From: Actinomycetota bacterium
GTDB taxonomy: Bacteria; Actinomycetota; Acidimicrobiia; Acidimicrobiales; Ilumatobacteraceae
DNA length: 64,000 nt
NCBI GenBank assembly: GCA_005790505.1
Contig: SXUP01000004.1
Location: forward strand, 1 to 64,000
Reading direction: 5' to 3'
The position numbers were made by a program, and so were the translations under genes. Position 1 is the stretch's first letter, and the number at the start of each line of letters is the position of its first letter. Positions 1,056 to 9,582 of this stretch are shown here, one piece after another. The notes under the pieces are model-generated. The model was not told the DNA's origin and searched no databases. It saw only the letters and a list, made by a program, of their open reading frames with translations.

Positions 1056-2681
1056 ATGACCACAATTCAGTCAAATGTTGATGCAGCCACTATTGGTGGT
1101 CGCTTGGCATCTGCCGAGCCAAGCCTCGCGTCCGCAATTGCTGATTGGATTACCACGAGTGATCACAAAAAAATAGGGCGATTATTTATCGGCTCATCGT
1201 TGTTGTTCGCAGTTGGCGTCTCAGTTCTTGGTGGGTTGCTTGGATTCGAGCGAATGAGTGCAAAGGGTTATTCAGTGCTTGAGGCAGACGCAGTCGTGCA
1301 ACTTTTCTCGGCGTATCAATTCGCACTTGTCTACGCCGTTGTTGCCCCACTCTTTGTTGGACTCGCCATCGCTGTTGTGCCGTTGCAATTAGGTTCGCGT
1401 TCGTTGTCGTATCCACGTCTCGCTTCTTTTGGCTTGTGGGCGTGGGTAAGCGGGTTAATCGTCACGCTTGTTTCAATTGCTGCCAACGGTGGTCCTGGAG
1501 GCGGCAACCCCGACATGGTTGATCTGTATCTTTTGGCGCTCGGGCTAGTTGCGCTAGGTCTGAGTGCAGCCTCGGTCAGCATTGTCGTAACTGTGCTTAC
1601 GTCCCGCGCGCCTGGCATGTCGCTCTTGCGAACGCCGATGTTTAGTTGGTCTGCGCTTATGGGTGCGATGGCTACGGTTTTGACGATGCCCGTGCTGATC
1701 GGAACATTGGTTTATACATATGTCGATCATGCAAATGGAAGATTGGCGTTTGGTGGCAACACCGACGTTTCGAAATGGATCGGTTGGTCTTTCACTCAGC
1801 CTCAAACTTTTGTCTTCGCAGTTATGGCTGTCGGTGTTTTGGCTGAACTTGCGCCAATTGTTGCCAATGTTCGACAACCACTCCGGCCCGTCATGTTGTT
1901 TGGGGTCACGCTTGTATCAACTGCGGCGCTGGGAGGCGCCACACAAAGTACGCATTCTTTTTCGTGGAACGGAACAATTGCCGACAAAGTAAAAGAACTT
2001 ATTCCGTTCGCGCTATTTAACCTCCTGCCGATTTTGGGAGTTCTCATCGTGTTGGCTCTTGGTGGTCTTGCGGCAAAAAATGGTCGAGTCAAATTGACTG
2101 CGAGTTTTGTGTTTGCATTTCTAGGAACTGGCATGTTGTTTGTCGGAATGCTCGTGCACGCGTTATCAATGATCGGTCCAGCGGCCCTCGCGGGAACCGT
2201 TGCCCAGGAATCATCAACGCTTTATGTGGTTTATGGAGCAGTAATGGTGGCACTCGGGGCAGTCGCGCACTGGGGACCAAAGTTATGGGGAAGGTGTTTG
2301 CCCAAAAAAGAAATGTTTGGACTTGCAGCACTTGCGCTGTTGGCAACAATCTTGAGTTCTTTGCCCCTCGTCTTAGCTGGATTTCTTGATCAACCAAGCA
2401 ATGTCGTTGCGGGGTGGTCTTATGATGCGTCGGGTCTTCTCAACGCAGTTTCGATGATCGGGCATGGATTGATGCTCGTCACGGTTCTTGGCTTTATTGG
2501 TCTCGCCTTCAAAAACTTCACATCGGGTGCATTCGCTAGCGACGATCCATGGGATGCACATTCCTTGGAGTGGTCCATTCCATCGCCAGCTCCTGCCGAA
2601 AATTTCTCTGATATCGCAATCGTTGGTTCTGCTGAGCCATTACTTGATGTCAAACCCGCAAGACAGGGAGTCTCGGCATGA
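1056..2681 (+). CDS. Cytochrome c oxidase subunit I paralog lacking all heme and copper ligands
   Basis: A 541-residue polytopic protein that aligns along its length with the real CtaD of this window: TSDHKK near the N-terminus, PLQLGSR/PRL/GLW after helix II, W-x-F-x-x-P in helix VI, HWGPKLWG after helix X and DPWDAHSLEW at the C-terminus. Every metal ligand is replaced. The low-spin heme His (H95 of CtaD) is Y87; the CuB His and cross-linked Tyr (H273, Y277) are Q248 and F252; the His pair (H322, H323) falls at Q297 and S298; the helix X His residues (H408, H410) fall at S386 and T388. It therefore cannot bind heme a, heme a3 or CuB in the usual way, and a structural or assembly role is inferred. 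I prefer the ATG at 1056, preceded by AGGAGA; a TTG at 1011 is in frame. It overlaps the next gene by ATGA. Confidence 0.85.
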   Translation: MTTIQSNVDAATIGGRLASAEPSLASAIADWITTSDHKKIGRLFIGSSLLFAVGVSVLGGLLGFERMSAKGYSVLEADAVVQLFSAYQFALVYAVVAPLFVGLAIAVVPLQLGSRSLSYPRLASFGLWAWVSGLIVTLVSIAANGGPGGGNPDMVDLYLLALGLVALGLSAASVSIVVTVLTSRAPGMSLLRTPMFSWSALMGAMATVLTMPVLIGTLVYTYVDHANGRLAFGGNTDVSKWIGWSFTQPQTFVFAVMAVGVLAELAPIVANVRQPLRPVMLFGVTLVSTAALGGATQSTHSFSWNGTIADKVKELIPFALFNLLPILGVLIVLALGGLAAKNGRVKLTASFVFAFLGTGMLFVGMLVHALSMIGPAALAGTVAQESSTLYVVYGAVMVALGAVAHWGPKLWGRCLPKKEMFGLAALALLATILSSLPLVLAGFLDQPSNVVAGWSYDASGLLNAVSMIGHGLMLVTVLGFIGLAFKNFTSGAFASDDPWDAHSLEWSIPSPAPAENFSDIAIVGSAEPLLDVKPARQGVSA

Positions 2682-3283
2682 CAATGACACTCCCGTCAGC
2701 TCCGAACCCCGCACCCAAAAGGCAAGCGCTGGTTGCAACTGCCGTTGCCTCTGTTGGGATAACGATGTTGGTGGCAGGAATGCTGGGTGTATGGCTGCGT
2801 TTTCGTGCTGCTGCCGACACGCGAATGTCATCAGATGGTCGGCGTGTCATTAAAGACTGGTTGCCATCGGATATCAAGATTCCCGAAGTTTCCTCGAACA
2901 CTATGCTGGCAGGACTATTTTTTGGATGTGTCATGGCGCAATGGGCCGTCTACGCAGCAAAGCGCGATGACTCGTCGCACCGCTCAATTGCGTTGGCCAT
3001 CTGCTTGCTCATGGAAGTCGCCATCATCAATGCGCAGGTCGCGGTCTACAGCCAAATGCAGATCGGTGTTAATGACGGCGTCTTTCAAGCAATGTTCTAT
3101 GCAATTACGGGGGTGATTGTCGTCTTGTTAGCAGTTGCAGTCGCCTTTACCGCAGTTACTTGGTTTCGGTCAGTTGGTGGCCGCGATAATGACAGCCACG
3201 TGGTGGCTGCTCACGCATTGTATTGGTATGTCCTTACTGCAGCATTTTGTGCAGTGTGGTTTGTGGTGTACGTACAGAAGTAG
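2678..3283 (+). CDS. Cytochrome c oxidase subunit III-like paralog
   Basis: A 201-residue membrane protein with about five hydrophobic helices, similar in layout to the real CtaE at 7678. It has an N-terminal helix followed by SSNTMLAGLFFGC (compare SSFVLLMSSLTM in CtaE), a central IINAQVAVYSQM segment and a C-terminal HALYWYVLTAAFCAVWF that corresponds to GLYWHFVDIVWIIIF. The similarity is remote and based on reading the two sequences together. The start codon overlaps the stop of the ligand-less subunit I paralog (ATGA), so the two are probably translationally coupled and form a complex. An alternative reading is a generic membrane protein, but the position and the YWY C-terminal motif favour the subunit III family. 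Confidence 0.7.
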   Translation: MTMTLPSAPNPAPKRQALVATAVASVGITMLVAGMLGVWLRFRAAADTRMSSDGRRVIKDWLPSDIKIPEVSSNTMLAGLFFGCVMAQWAVYAAKRDDSSHRSIALAICLLMEVAIINAQVAVYSQMQIGVNDGVFQAMFYAITGVIVVLLAVAVAFTAVTWFRSVGGRDNDSHVVAAHALYWYVLTAAFCAVWFVVYVQK

Positions 3284-3288
3284 GACAC

Positions 3289-4410
3289 ATGATTACAACA
3301 GGATCAAAATATTGTTTTGGCATCGCAGGTCTCGGGTCGTTGGGCGCCCTGATTTACATGATCCTGATCAACCCATCTGATGTTGGGGTGCTGGCGTTGC
3401 TCGGGATTGCGATTGCGATGTCAATTGTCGGAGGCGTCACTCAGTTCACGGGTGATTTTGATGCCGATACTGTGTCTGATGCAATCACGGTAAGTGCGAG
3501 TGCTCCTGCCAACAGCATGTGGCCACTGCTTTTGGCTCTTGGCGGTGTGCTACTGCTCGTTGGAATGACGACTAATCCAATTATATTTCTTTTGGGAATC
3601 GTGGTTATCGTTGCCGCAGGAATTGAGTGGGCGTTGCAGTCGTGGGCAGAACGTGCCTCAGAAGACTCTGCCTTCAACAGATTCGTGCGAGAGCGCGCGC
3701 TGACATCACTCGAGTTGCCATTGTTGGCCGGGGGTGCCGTCGCGGTTATTGCGATTGCATTCTCGCGAATAATGTTGGCAGTCTCGCCGGAAAACGGCGC
3801 AATCATTTTTATAGTGGTTGCTACGGCCGTGTTGGCTGTCGGATTCTTGATCGCGGTAAAGACGAATCTCAAGAAGACTTCAATAACGGCGGTGTGCGTG
3901 CTTGGGGCTGTCGCTCTTCTGGTGTCAGGCGGAATCGCAGGGCAGAGTGGAAATCGGGAACAGCTTGTTTCGGCCGCCGCTGAGGAGCATTACTCCCACA
4001 AGGATTGCGAAGAAACAGCATCAAAGTACTTTGACAAAAATTCTGAGAAAACAGTCAGCATGAAGTCGGGCATTTTGGCAACTATTCGCGTCAAGGATGG
4101 CAAGTTATCCGCTCAACTCATTGGTTTGGATGCCCCCGTTGCAACCGTTACCGTGGCGCGCTCGAATCAAGCAACTATCTTGTTCCGAAACCTTGACGAC
4201 GAGGAGCATCGACTTGTCGCCAACTTGGGAGTCAAAAAAGTTGGTGAGACTGGCGTTGTTGAAAAAATTGTCGATTGCACCCAGATGACTGGCAAAAATC
4301 AGACCCAAGCACTGCTTCTCAAGATCAATAAGCCTTCTGCATCTTCGGGGCCCTACACATTTACAGTTCCAGGCTTAGAGGGTCAAGAGATTGCGTTGGT
4401 GGTGCCGTGA
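3289..4410 (+). CDS. Multi-pass membrane protein with C-terminal cupredoxin-like domain (oxidase locus)
   Basis: About seven hydrophobic helices (roughly residues 5-225 of 373) are followed by a soluble domain. The helix pair around NSMWPLLLALGG and IVVIVAAGIEWALQSW resembles the two-helix subunit IV-like tail of CtaD (SYWPIAIAVGVG). The last 100 residues read like a cupredoxin beta-sandwich: VARSNQATILFRNLDDEEHR is the usual turn before the first Cu-binding His, and GPYTFTVPGLEGQEI the C-terminal strand pair, but the Cys of a blue-copper site is absent. Function unknown; a partner of the two preceding oxidase paralogs is inferred. ATG 3289 is chosen because it follows the previous stop by 5 bases. 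Its stop overlaps the GTG of ctaC (GTGA). Confidence 0.6.
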   Translation: MITTGSKYCFGIAGLGSLGALIYMILINPSDVGVLALLGIAIAMSIVGGVTQFTGDFDADTVSDAITVSASAPANSMWPLLLALGGVLLLVGMTTNPIIFLLGIVVIVAAGIEWALQSWAERASEDSAFNRFVRERALTSLELPLLAGGAVAVIAIAFSRIMLAVSPENGAIIFIVVATAVLAVGFLIAVKTNLKKTSITAVCVLGAVALLVSGGIAGQSGNREQLVSAAAEEHYSHKDCEETASKYFDKNSEKTVSMKSGILATIRVKDGKLSAQLIGLDAPVATVTVARSNQATILFRNLDDEEHRLVANLGVKKVGETGVVEKIVDCTQMTGKNQTQALLLKINKPSASSGPYTFTVPGLEGQEIALVVP

Positions 4411-5672
4411 GTCACGAGGGCACATTGCCAGTTTCTAAGCAAAACATGACTATTTTTGGAGGAGTGAAAAGCCAAGGTCGTCTAAATCGAAAAAAAACTG
4501 CGGTGATGGCGTTTGGTGTTCTTTTTATGGCGGGCTGTGCCCGTGATGCACCTCAGGATACTTGGCAGCCCAAGGGTGAAAATGCCTCGAACATCAACAC
4601 TCTGCAGTGGATCGTCTTTCCGCTAGCCGGAGTTGTTGGAGTAGCAGTCTTTGCGTTGATCGGATTTGTTTTGTGGCGCTATCGCGACAAAGGCCAGGCC
4701 ATCCCCCATCAGTCGCATGGAAATCCAGCGGTTGAAATTACTCTCACGATTATTCCGGCGCTGATCTTGAGCGTTGTCGGTGTTTTCACCTTTCGTGGCA
4801 TTTTTCAGTTAGCACAAACTAACGACACTCAAATGGTTATTAATGTGACTGGTCAGCAGTGGTGGTGGGAATACGACTATCCAGCCCAGGTAGTGAACGG
4901 TGTTGAAATATCGCAACCAATTATCACGGCGGGTCAACTTGTAATCCCAACGGACACGAAAGTGCTCTTGCGCGAAACCAGTCGAGATGTCATTCACTCG
5001 TACTGGATTCCAGCCCTTAATGGCAAAAAAGATGCAGTTCCAGGGCGAATTAACTTGTTGCGTCTTCAGGCTTACAAGCCCGGAATCTATGCCGGCCAGT
5101 GCACAGAATTCTGTGGCTTGTCGCACGCCAACATGCGGATGGAGGCGGTGGCTTTAGAGCCCGCAGACTTCGCAACGTGGGTAGCCAATCAGCAACGCAA
5201 TGCCCAGCAACCTGCTCAGGCATCACTGGCCCAAGAGGGTGAAGGGGTTTTTCTCAATCAGTGCATCCGTTGTCATCAGGTCAATGGTCTCAAAAAAGCA
5301 GATGGCACGGCGGCAATTGCTGCACCTGATGAAAATGTGTACTCAGGTGCTGCCCCGAATCTGACCCATTTGATGAGTCGCAACACCTTTGCTGGGGCGG
5401 CTTTTGATCTGGTCACTTCTGACTGTCGCAAAAATATCTGGACCGCTTCACCTGAGCAATTTGGTGCTGCGTATCTCGAGGGAGTTTCACCTAAATGTCT
5501 CAATCAAACGAACCTTCGTCGCTGGCTGCGCAATGCTCCTGAGATGAAACCGATGTATGCCGACCCGACCAAACTCGCCTCATCAGATGGCAAGTATCGT
5601 GGCATGCCTAATCTGAATCTGTCCGAGTCCGACATCGACAAACTTGTCGCCTATTTATCAACCCTCAAATAA
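4407..5672 (+). CDS. ctaC: Cytochrome c oxidase subunit II with fused cytochrome c domain
   Basis: Electron-entry subunit of a caa3-type oxidase, 421 residues. The N-terminus is a probable lipoprotein signal ending in FMAGC (Cys44). Two transmembrane helices follow (near IVFPLAGVVGVAVFALIGF and LTIIPALILSVVGVF). The CuA domain shows QWWWEYDY, the first ligand in VIHSYWIP, and the binuclear centre CTEFCGLSHANM (Cys-x3-Cys-x3-His-x2-Met). A C-terminal class I cytochrome c domain carries CIRCH for covalent heme, with a likely axial Met in GMPNLNLS; two further Cys (SDCRKN, PKCLNQ) sit between them and may form a disulfide. GTG 4407 overlaps the upstream stop; ATG 4446 is an alternative that gives a shorter signal sequence. 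Confidence 0.93.
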   Translation: MSHEGTLPVSKQNMTIFGGVKSQGRLNRKKTAVMAFGVLFMAGCARDAPQDTWQPKGENASNINTLQWIVFPLAGVVGVAVFALIGFVLWRYRDKGQAIPHQSHGNPAVEITLTIIPALILSVVGVFTFRGIFQLAQTNDTQMVINVTGQQWWWEYDYPAQVVNGVEISQPIITAGQLVIPTDTKVLLRETSRDVIHSYWIPALNGKKDAVPGRINLLRLQAYKPGIYAGQCTEFCGLSHANMRMEAVALEPADFATWVANQQRNAQQPAQASLAQEGEGVFLNQCIRCHQVNGLKKADGTAAIAAPDENVYSGAAPNLTHLMSRNTFAGAAFDLVTSDCRKNIWTASPEQFGAAYLEGVSPKCLNQTNLRRWLRNAPEMKPMYADPTKLASSDGKYRGMPNLNLSESDIDKLVAYLSTLK

Positions 5673-5687
5673 TCGGAGCAGACTGAT

Positions 5688-7685
5688 ATGGCCATCATTG
5701 AACGTCCAACACCAACAGCAGCTATCACTCTGCGCGCACCAGTCACACCTGCACAATCAATGGGGATTGTGCGTCGTCCTGTCACATCAACTGGCTGGAA
5801 ATCTTGGGTATTTACGGTTGATCACAAGAAAATTGGCATTATGTATGGCGTTTTCGCCATGTTCTTTTTTATTGTTGGCGGTGTTGAAGCACTTCTAATT
5901 CGTCTTCAACTTGCTACGCCAGACGGCAAAGTTCTTAGTGCTGACCTGTACAACCAAATGTTTACGATGCACGCAACAACGATGATCTTTTTGTTTGCAA
6001 TGCCGATGGCGGCAGCATTTGCCAATTATTTTTTGCCCTTGCAATTGGGCGCACGAGATGTTGCTTTCCCGCGCCTCAATGCACTTGGTCTCTGGTTGCT
6101 GGTTGCTGGTGGCCTCATTCTGAATGCGTCTTGGTTTCTTGGTGGGGCCGCTGACGGTGGATGGTTTATGTATTCTCCAAACTCTGGCCCTGTTTTTTCG
6201 CCAAGCAACGGCGTTGACTTCTGGACCCTCGGTGTGCAGATTGCTGGTTTTGGTTCCCTCATCGGGTCAATCAATCTGATCGTCACAATTTTGAATATGC
6301 GGGCACCTGGGATGACGCTGATGAAAATGCCCGTGTTCTGCTGGATGATTCTAGTGGTTCAGTTTTTGTTGGTGTTTTCGTTGCCAGTCATCACAGTGGC
6401 ACTTGTGTTGCTGACCTTCCAACGTTCTTTTGGAGCCACCTTCTTTGATGTCGCTCAAGGTGCCGACCCCTTATTGTGGCAGCACTTATTCTGGATCTTT
6501 GGTCATCCGGAGGTTTATGTCTTGATTTTGCCGGCGTTCGGCATCATCACTGAGGTACTTCCCACATTTTCTCGAAAGCCACTCTTTGGTTATCCGTTCG
6601 TGGTCTTTTCAGGTGCTTCAATTGGACTTGTCGGCTTTGGTGTCTGGTCACATCACATGTTCGCAACAGGGCTTGGTCCAATATCTGTCGCTGCGTTCTC
6701 TATTGCCACGATGGCAATTGCAATTCCAACTGGAGTAAAAATCTTCAATTGGACCCTCACAATGTGGGGGGGAAAAATCTGGTATTCGACCGCCATGAAA
6801 TTCTCCATTGGCTTAATAGTTTTGTTTACAATCGGTGGCTTGTCTGGCGTCACTCACGCGGTTGCTCCCTCAGATACGCAACAGACCGATACCTACTACA
6901 TCGTTGCCCACTTTCATTACGTTCTTTTTGGTGGAATGGTGTTTGGCCTTTTCTCTGGCTTCTATTATTGGTGGCCTAAAGTTTTTGGAAAAATGCTCAA
7001 TGAAAAACTTGGCGGCTGGAATTTTTGGCTGATGGTTATCGGTATGAATATGACCTTCGGACCAATGCATATTTTGGGACTCCAAGGTCAGCCGCGACGT
7101 ATGTATGTCTGGACTGAGGCGCGCGCCGGTGAGGGTCTTTTCAATTTTGGTTTCTGGAATAAAATTGCGTCACTTGGTTCTCTGATTCTGACTATCGGAA
7201 TTTTATTCTTCTTAATCAATATCGTCTACACCGCTCGTAAGGGTAAAATTGCTCCACTTGATCCGTGGGACGCACGCACACTTGAGTGGATCACAACGAG
7301 TCCCCCCAAAGAGCACAATTTTGATCGCATTCCAGTAGTGCACCATCTAGATGACTTCTTTCATCGTAAATATCAAGAAGATGCCACGACTGGTGAATTA
7401 GTGCAGATCGCTACTGGGGAGCAACTGGTCCGTGCTGAAGAAGCAAATGCTGATGCCCATATTCATCTTCCATCTCCGTCTTATTGGCCCATTGCGATTG
7501 CCGTTGGTGTCGGGACCCTTGGTTTTGGAGTGGTTTATGGAGTCCCAATCATGATTGTCGGTGTTCTGATGATTCTTGGTTCTTCCTTCGGCTTCGTTCT
7601 TGAACCATCTGTCGCTCAAGATATTGACTACGACCCACCAGCTTCTGGCGGTCAAGACACGAAAGAGTTGGCTCCCCTTGGATAG
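5688..7685 (+). CDS. ctaD: Cytochrome c oxidase subunit I with C-terminal subunit IV-like extension
   Basis: Catalytic subunit of the aa3-type oxidase, reducing O2 to water and pumping protons. All ligands are present: H95 (low-spin heme a), H273 with Y277 (CuB and the cross-linked Tyr in HPEVY), H322/H323 (CuB) and H408/H410 (heme a3 and heme a). At 665 residues it is about 90 longer than typical actinobacterial CtaD. The extra C-terminal part after EHNFDRIP contains two helices (SYWPIAIAVGVG and VPIMIVGVLMILGS) that look like a fused small subunit IV. ATG 5688 has GGAG upstream and lies 15 bases after ctaC. It contrasts directly with the ligand-less paralog at 1056-2681. Confidence 0.97.
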   Translation: MAIIERPTPTAAITLRAPVTPAQSMGIVRRPVTSTGWKSWVFTVDHKKIGIMYGVFAMFFFIVGGVEALLIRLQLATPDGKVLSADLYNQMFTMHATTMIFLFAMPMAAAFANYFLPLQLGARDVAFPRLNALGLWLLVAGGLILNASWFLGGAADGGWFMYSPNSGPVFSPSNGVDFWTLGVQIAGFGSLIGSINLIVTILNMRAPGMTLMKMPVFCWMILVVQFLLVFSLPVITVALVLLTFQRSFGATFFDVAQGADPLLWQHLFWIFGHPEVYVLILPAFGIITEVLPTFSRKPLFGYPFVVFSGASIGLVGFGVWSHHMFATGLGPISVAAFSIATMAIAIPTGVKIFNWTLTMWGGKIWYSTAMKFSIGLIVLFTIGGLSGVTHAVAPSDTQQTDTYYIVAHFHYVLFGGMVFGLFSGFYYWWPKVFGKMLNEKLGGWNFWLMVIGMNMTFGPMHILGLQGQPRRMYVWTEARAGEGLFNFGFWNKIASLGSLILTIGILFFLINIVYTARKGKIAPLDPWDARTLEWITTSPPKEHNFDRIPVVHHLDDFFHRKYQEDATTGELVQIATGEQLVRAEEANADAHIHLPSPSYWPIAIAVGVGTLGFGVVYGVPIMIVGVLMILGSSFGFVLEPSVAQDIDYDPPASGGQDTKELAPLG

Positions 7686-8298
7686 CGCAGCAGTTCTTAG
7701 CAATCATGACGTTCACAGTGCCGAACAGGGTCATCACTCGGCAACAGGATTGTCAAATAACAAGATGGCGATGTGGCTCTTTTTGGGCTCGGAGTGTTTG
7801 CTTTTTGGCGGTCTGATTTCAACTTACATGTTGTATCGCGGACGAATTACACAAGGACCACGTCCATCTCAGATCTTTGATATTCCGTTCACTTCAGTCA
7901 GTAGTTTTGTGTTACTTATGTCTTCTCTCACGATGGTTTTGGCAGTGACATCGACGCAACGCAGAGACTACGAGCGCTCAAAATTATGGTTGACGGTGAC
8001 TGCATTGCTGGGTGCTACCTTTGTGGGCGGTCAGGTCTATGAATTCACTGCGTTCTATAACGAAGGTCTGGGCTTCACAACAAACCTCTTCAGTTCTAGT
8101 TTCTATACTCTCACTGGTTTTCACGGAGTACACGTCACGGTTGGTGTGATTATGTTGATGGCTTTGCGCGGAATAATCAGCAAAAACAGAGACACTGGTG
8201 ATCGTGCTGAAGTTGTTGAACTGATTGGTCTGTATTGGCACTTTGTGGACATTGTCTGGATTATTATTTTCACCCTTGTATATCTGATTCCGGCATAA
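7678..8298 (+). CDS. ctaE: Cytochrome c oxidase subunit III
   Basis: Integral membrane subunit III of the aa3-type oxidase, about 206 residues with five helices. Recognisable segments are MWLFLGSECLLFGGLIS, GFHGVHVTVGVIML (the conserved GxHxxH-type helix) and the C-terminal GLYWHFVDIVWIIIF. The start is uncertain: TTG 7678 overlaps the end of ctaD and has AAAGAG about 10 bases upstream, while an ATG at 7576 lies deep inside ctaD and the next in-frame ATG, 7765, is close to the first helix. I give 7678. The overlap with ctaD and the 12-base gap to the next gene imply one transcript. Confidence 0.92.
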   Translation: MDSAAVLSNHDVHSAEQGHHSATGLSNNKMAMWLFLGSECLLFGGLISTYMLYRGRITQGPRPSQIFDIPFTSVSSFVLLMSSLTMVLAVTSTQRRDYERSKLWLTVTALLGATFVGGQVYEFTAFYNEGLGFTTNLFSSSFYTLTGFHGVHVTVGVIMLMALRGIISKNRDTGDRAEVVELIGLYWHFVDIVWIIIFTLVYLIPA

Positions 8299-8310
8299 AG
8301 GGCTTTGACA

Positions 8311-8634
8311 ATGGACGCCACAACCACCGCCACCGATACCGTTCAGCAAGGTGACTCGCATGAGCACGGGTTGAGCGACGCCATGGCAATCAAGATCGCC
8401 CTCATTTTGGCAGCAATGACTGCTCTTGAAGTTTCGACCTACTACGTGGATTTCGGTGCCTTTTTCCTGCCCGTATTGATTATCTTGATGATTGTCAAGT
8501 TTTTTACAGTAGTGAGTTACTTTATGCATCTCAAGTTCGAGCATCAGATGTTCAAACTCCTGTTTTACACTGGTTTGGGGCTTGCGTTATTTGTGTATTT
8601 TGTTGCCCTTGCGACCTTCAAGTTTTTTAACTAG
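8311..8634 (+). CDS. ctaF: Cytochrome c oxidase subunit IV (prokaryotic COX4 family)
   Basis: A 107-residue protein with three predicted helices: IKIALILAAMTALEVSTYY, FFLPVLIILMIVKFFTVV and LLFYTGLGLALFVYFVAL. The signature YFMHLKFEHQMFK between helices two and three is typical of the small CtaF/CoxD subunit that stabilises CuB assembly in bacterial oxidases. The N-terminus is short, soluble and His-rich (GDSHEHG). ATG 8311 is preceded by AAAGGG about 8 bases upstream, so I do not use the in-frame TTG at 8305. The window thus holds both this free subunit IV and a subunit IV-like tail on CtaD. Confidence 0.88.
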   Translation: MDATTTATDTVQQGDSHEHGLSDAMAIKIALILAAMTALEVSTYYVDFGAFFLPVLIILMIVKFFTVVSYFMHLKFEHQMFKLLFYTGLGLALFVYFVALATFKFFN

Positions 8635-8652: not shown

Positions 8653-9582
8653 GTGTTATTCGCAAATGCAGGAGTGTCTTTTAATCCACATCCATGGCGC
8701 TTTCAGCCACACCCAGAAGTTTGGATGTTGCTGGTATTTCTAGTCGGGGCATACATCTATGCCGTGCGAGTTATTGGTCCGCGAGTTGCACCGCAGGGGA
8801 GCGTCATCAGCCCCCGACAAACACGTTTATTTATCCTGTTAATGACGCTTTTTTGGTTGGCGACGGATTGGCCGGTACACGATATTGCCGAAGAGTATCT
8901 GTATTCGGTTCACATGGTGCAACACCTTGTTTTGTCGTACTTCGTCCCACCACTTGCATTGATGTGTGTGCCCGAGTGGATGTTTCGATTACTTATCGGA
9001 ACTGGTCGCACCTACCGAGTCGTGCGGTTTGCCACCAAGCCAGTAGTCGCTGGAGTCTGCTTCAACTTAGTCGTGATGATTACGCATATTCCTAAATTAG
9101 TCAACGCCAGTGCGAGCAATGGTTTATTGCACTATTCGCTTCACATTTTACTGGTCACGACTGCCCTAATGTTTTGGATGCCCATCTGCGGGTCGTTGAG
9201 CGAATGGCAGATGAAACCTGGTGGAAAGATGATTTACATGTTTGTGTTGTCGTTTGTGCCAACGATCCCTGCTGGCTGGTTAACTTTTGCCACTGGTTCG
9301 GTATACCGCCACTACGACACTCCGGTCCGTGTTTGGGGTATTTCGGTGTTGGAAGACCAGCAGGCAGCAGGCGGAATAATGAAACTTGGTGGGTCAATTT
9401 TTATCTGGGCAATCATCATCTTTTTGTTTTTCAAAAAATTTATTGGTGATTTTCATAATCAGCAGAGTTATCTTCACAAAGATAGAATGCCAAACACAGA
9501 GATTGTCGGGTCTGCAGAGCCTCTAATGTATGAAGACGTCACACGCGCATTTGCGCAGGTCCAACCAGCAAAAGAAGAGTAG
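8653..9582 (+). CDS. ctaG: CtaG family caa3 oxidase assembly protein
   Basis: A 309-residue membrane protein of the Caa3_CtaG family, required for assembly of the caa3 oxidase and thought to act on copper insertion. About seven helices are visible, with conserved family features DWPVHDIAEEYLYSVHMVQH (several His likely involved in metal handling), PLALMCVPEW, HYSLHILLV and FVPTIPAGWLTF. The C-terminal cytosolic tail contains IVGSAEPL (residues 284-291), the same eight residues found near the C-terminus of the ligand-less subunit I paralog, with different codons. It is the last gene of the oxidase run, with GTG 8653 as start 18 bases after ctaF. Confidence 0.9.
   Translation: MLFANAGVSFNPHPWRFQPHPEVWMLLVFLVGAYIYAVRVIGPRVAPQGSVISPRQTRLFILLMTLFWLATDWPVHDIAEEYLYSVHMVQHLVLSYFVPPLALMCVPEWMFRLLIGTGRTYRVVRFATKPVVAGVCFNLVVMITHIPKLVNASASNGLLHYSLHILLVTTALMFWMPICGSLSEWQMKPGGKMIYMFVLSFVPTIPAGWLTFATGSVYRHYDTPVRVWGISVLEDQQAAGGIMKLGGSIFIWAIIIFLFFKKFIGDFHNQQSYLHKDRMPNTEIVGSAEPLMYEDVTRAFAQVQPAKEE

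Follow-up and report, generated by a model that had tools for sequence, protein, structure and literature searches.

The locus lies at the beginning of a 64,000-nucleotide window, the whole stretch of DNA that was analyzed, from an actinobacterium of the family Ilumatobacteraceae. Nine genes follow one another in the order ctaB-I'-III'-X-ctaC-ctaD-ctaE-ctaF-like-ctaG, all on the forward strand:

2 to 916, forward: heme O synthase-like gene directly upstream of I', an ORF which we take to be ctaB from general knowledge of the family; homologs precede I' at nearly every locus
1056 to 2681, forward: I', a COX1-fold protein without any metal ligand, by profile, alignment, and structure prediction
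2678 to 3283, forward: III', a COX3-like membrane protein (PF00510), conserved after I'
3289 to 4410, forward: X, several transmembrane helices and a C-terminal cupredoxin-like domain without copper ligands, by profile match to relatives and Foldseek
4407 to 5672, forward: ctaC, subunit II, a CuA domain with a fused cytochrome c domain (caa3 type; PF00116, PF00034, TIGR02866)
5688 to 7685, forward: ctaD, canonical subunit I with all ligands present (PF00115, 519 bits; TIGR02891, 694 bits, above cut-off)
7576 to 8298, forward: ctaE, subunit III (PF00510, 69.7 bits); the ORF is an upper bound, and the true start lies further in
8305 to 8634, forward: ctaF-like subunit IV (PF03626, 38.1 bits)
8653 to 9582, forward: ctaG, caa3 assembly factor (PF09678, 137.7 bits)

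The start of III' overlaps the stop of I' (ATGA), and III' was recognized by the COX3 profile PF00510 through a partial match (83-199; 33.7 bits, cut-off 23.8). I' had been thought to begin the oxidase gene run, but ctaB comes first.

I' is an intact ORF of 541 codons plus stop, as originally read, with an ATG start whose methionine (M1) is kept in the orthologs. It matched the Pfam COX1 profile PF00115 with 102.4 bits (cut-off 34.8), residues 39 to 469 aligning with positions 1 to 433 of the 436 in the profile, a score that indicates homology to COX1 beyond chance; TIGR02891 gave 162 bits, far under the NCBIfam cut-offs for true oxidases. The AlphaFold model (mean pLDDT, 84.9) superposed on CtaD from Mycobacterium smegmatis (6adq_F) with a Z score of 38.7 over 486 residues at 2.6 Å, and Foldseek concurred with a CtaD-like fold for the predicted structure. 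By COX1 profile and predicted fold, I' belongs by homology to the heme-copper oxidase subunit I superfamily; the profile search and superposition proposed with the original prediction thus both found an oxidase fold. Like CtaD and other COX1 proteins (A-type heme-copper oxidase subunit I) in fold, length, and gene neighborhood, I' shares with them an N-terminal DHKKIG motif and a C-terminal DPWxxxxLEWxxxSP motif; unlike them, it lacks heme and CuB ligands, the His-Tyr pair, D- and K-channel residues, and the propionate arginines. I' and ctaD are the two COX1-family genes of the genome, and the nearest I' orthologs among named records come from Ilumatobacteraceae/acIV actinobacteria.

The losses were scored by aligning 113 COX1-like proteins, 43 of them canonical and 70 of the I' type (64 in a main group and 6 basal). 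Although the CuB histidines served to define the groups, the division does not depend on circular reasoning, because one branch of the tree sets the same 43 proteins apart. Fifteen positions were scored, comprising the six ligand histidines, the cross-linked tyrosine, and residues of the D-channel, the K-channel, and the arginine pair. All 43 canonical proteins keep all 15; I' of the window keeps none. The three heme histidines of CtaD (two low-spin, one high-spin) are lost (H95 to Y87, H410 to L389, H408 to S387), as are the three CuB histidines and the cross-linked tyrosine (H273 to Q248, H322 to Q297, H323 to S298, Y277 to F252). Further losses affect N113, D124, N131, E275, T348, K351, and the R470-R471 pair, which belong to the D-channel, the K-channel, and the heme-propionate arginines; in place of the D-channel aspartate, the K-channel lysine, and the propionate arginine pair that mark A-type proton pumping, I' has S116, V332, and S448-N449. 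The central claim of the original prediction, a COX1 homolog with every metal ligand replaced, is borne out; five positions of its ligand mapping were right and two, given as S386 and T388, were one residue off (S387 and L389 in the multi-sequence alignment), which leaves the conclusion unchanged.

The same pattern extends across the I' clade. In 48 of the 64 main-group proteins all six ligand positions are without histidine, and a complete CuB set is found in none of the 70 aligned I' proteins and none of 19 read later (89 in total, close relatives included); none of the heme ligands is kept by most of the 89. The replacements are themselves conserved in the main group (H322 to glutamine in 54/64, H273 to glutamine in 42/64), a pattern that suggests constraint by structure, not drift. 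No substitute ligand was found across the clade: the sole histidine present in at least 88% of its members, H37, also occurs in CtaD, so that the ligand-free reading withstood a search for histidines in other ligand positions. Nor does the clade contain a conserved histidine, cysteine, or methionine fit for a metal path. With ligands, proton channels, and clade-wide substitute residues all missing, I' cannot, to the extent that sequence can tell, carry out oxidase chemistry.

X shows a related loss. The window protein matched relatives carrying a complete type-1 copper motif in an hhalign profile comparison (probability, 99.8), and Foldseek matched its C-terminal domain to auracyanin with an E value of 9.1e-5, although on a low-confidence model (pLDDT of 51.7 overall and about 70 to 85 in the C-terminal beta domain, the sole usable part). 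Window X had no Pfam cupredoxin match. Deep-branching relatives have an X with the complete motif H...CxxHxxM; four of these X proteins were run against Pfam Cupredoxin_1 (PF13473), and all four passed. X may resemble auracyanin and Cupredoxin_1-type cupredoxins in the predicted fold of its C-terminal domain, and its relatives link it to them, but in the window it has lost the cysteine, second histidine, and methionine of the His-Cys-His-Met ligand set, and it is fused to a multihelix membrane part; no CxxHxxM occurs in the window family, and in most lineages either the cupredoxin domain or its ligand set is gone. In one relative (L041, 6235 to 7296), X weakly matches actinobacterial subunit IV over its N-terminal part (PF12270, E value of 0.012), which would make X a possible fusion of a subunit IV-like part with a cupredoxin part. 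In some deep-branching loci where the X motif is still present, a TlpA-like thioredoxin gene follows X (L047, 4630 to 5229; in L048 and L050 it lies between X and ctaC).

Some relatives on deep branches, a minority, have lost CuB but retain heme ligands, mostly next to an X with the full type-1 copper motif, and give a view of intermediate states. I' proteins from L046, L047, L048, L050, and L039 retain H95, H408, and H410 without CuB ligands, and their X carries a complete type-1 copper motif, as does X of L098, in which I' keeps H95 and H410 and has glutamine for H408; L150 and L037 keep the low-spin pair alone and have no copper motif. The six relatives with the motif share with window I' their side of the tree, the ctaB-I'-III'-X order, and the loss of CuB, and differ from it in the retained heme-ligand histidines and in an X with CxxHxxM. 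In the heme-ligand-keeping I' proteins of L046, L047, L048, and L050, arginine replaces the CuB histidine at the H273 position (as it does in five of the six proteins of the basal set); a distal arginine beside a high-spin heme might support another chemistry. One branch with 100/100 support parts all I' proteins from all canonical COX1; L150 falls in with the L046 group, and on the ligand-free side the earliest branches are L039 and, after it, L037. Since the tree was not rooted with an outgroup, reading the changes as losses and not as gains depends on parsimony and on all other COX1 proteins being canonical.

The link between the blue-copper motif of X and the heme ligands of I' was nearly exact in the first set of sequences, and the prediction fixed beforehand was that the heme pair would be retained in new genomes that have the motif. 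The low-spin histidine pair was kept in 6 of 8 new genomes with the motif versus 2 of 11 without (one-sided P of ∼0.02, relatedness ignored); a strict link therefore held only in part. Two loci, L183 and L185, still have the type-1 copper motif in X, although the heme ligands of I' are lost there (NQLGNQT and YRLQDME). These counts point to CuB loss common to all, with later losses repeated and not always in the same order. Read from the sequences, then, a former redox unit would have lost CuB first and subsequently the hemes and the blue-copper site in several lineages, with the protein kept. The ligand-free fold of the original prediction stands, but its picture of an isolated I' missed III', X, and the CuB-less intermediates, which together indicate a progressively stripped module rather than an isolated oddity.

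I' orthologs with intact frames occupy the same location in many families of the host's order, as an ortholog search suggested at the outset revealed, and the ctaB-I'-III'-X-ctaC-ctaD order is kept across families in most of the order's loci that were read. Outside the order, 19 loci of class relatives were read, and all of them have related ctaC-ctaD genes without the module; some families within the order have other oxidases and no module. The best profile matches in a sample of 296 phylum genomes were, where read, canonical COX1 proteins; the sole exception, G049, is a member of the host's order. In one genome (G225), the I'-III'-X module lies several kilobases away from ctaC-ctaD; between them (L098, 6830 to 10061) are metal ABC-transporter-like genes (binding protein, ATPase, and permease, named by eye) and a Fur-like regulator. 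The window genome also has a split-type cytochrome b in two ORFs of about 260 amino acids (L143, contig C36), beside a Rieske-like protein, a two-cluster ferredoxin-like gene, and a 213-amino-acid membrane protein; by eye this locus differs from the mycobacterial QcrCAB arrangement. Since ctaD is the only other COX1-family gene and cytochrome bd gave no match in this genome, it appears to have, among these types of terminal oxidase, the caa3 enzyme alone.

The reading toward which we lean is that I'-III'-X is a cofactor-free pseudo-oxidase module that serves the neighboring caa3 oxidase as a partner in its structure or assembly. The module would be descended from a heme-copper oxidase unit; I' and III' would pair as subunits I and III do, with X sitting alongside them, and the whole would bind to the CtaC-CtaD-CtaE oxidase, either as an assembly platform or as a structural partner that stays in place, performing no oxidase-type redox chemistry or proton pumping of its own. 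The constant position of I' ahead of ctaC-ctaD, its association with III', and purifying selection point to such a partner, and the earlier suggestions of a scaffold, structural partner, or heme-free subunit are plausible. Two results count against the partner model: in a rate-correlation (mirror-tree) analysis, I' correlated with all cluster genes, even with CtaG, so that no partner was singled out, and in G225 the module is set apart from ctaC-ctaD. It could act elsewhere in the membrane.

The simplest alternative, that I' is a pseudogene or an artifact of annotation or assembly, might be drawn from its divergence across the host's order, about three times that of CtaD (mean distance of 1.55 versus 0.47). 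I' matches contain no internal stops, however, the gene order recurs across families and independent assemblies, and pairwise dN/dS for I' is 0.03 to 0.12 in eight pairs of relatives, compared with 0.04 to 0.18 for III', X, and CtaC and 0.03 to 0.06 for CtaD in the same pairs (ctaB values for the pairs window-L023 and L023-L024, read in the wrong frame, were left out). I' is clearly under strong purifying selection, and with its conservation this rules out a pseudogene or artifact, as the original prediction had held.

There are also two functional alternatives. Were I' still to bind heme through other residues, as an electron-transfer or gas-sensing subunit, it could be compared with the relatives that keep H95, H408, and H410 together with the copper motif in X, and H225 and H300 (30/36 and 27/36 in Ilumatobacteraceae) would be its candidate residues; both fall under 88% conservation across the host's order, however, three-quarters of the main group (48/64) lack all six ligand histidines, and the propionate arginines are gone, which makes this quite improbable. 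A less remote but still unlikely reading is that I'-III'-X forms a separate membrane complex that shares only the operon and has its own nonredox job in metal, heme precursor, proton, or lipid transport, for example, copper or heme delivery to CtaC-CtaD. The neighboring ctaB and ctaG genes for cofactor supply and assembly, the TlpA-like genes of deep-branching loci, the metal-transporter-like genes beside the module in G225, and a cupredoxin in X that could handle copper would all suit it, but the I' clade offers no conserved histidine, cysteine, or methionine for a metal path, and most lineages have discarded the cupredoxin domain or its ligands.

We regard I' as a branch of pseudoenzymes within the heme-copper oxidase superfamily; a search confined to the open-access literature turned up no account of a subunit I without ligands. 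Paralogous cofactor-free membrane subunits within a respiratory complex have a precedent in ActC and ActF of alternative complex III, whose NrfD-like fold family is unrelated. More tentatively than the partner model itself, we propose that a whole respiratory module (subunits I and III and a cupredoxin-bearing subunit) may have become a cofactor-free partner, forming a pseudo-dimer with the active oxidase and belonging permanently to the aerobic respiration of a large bacterial order; if so, it would be, to our knowledge, the first heme-copper oxidase pseudoenzyme. Since I' passes the Pfam COX1 cut-off, automatic annotation of environmental genomes can miscount it as an additional terminal oxidase. 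Heme-copper oxidase subunit I is usually seen as defined by its metal ligands, yet the I' clade keeps the fold and loses them all, and because relatives show intermediate stages, one can trace in successive steps how an enzyme was converted into a noncatalytic partner.
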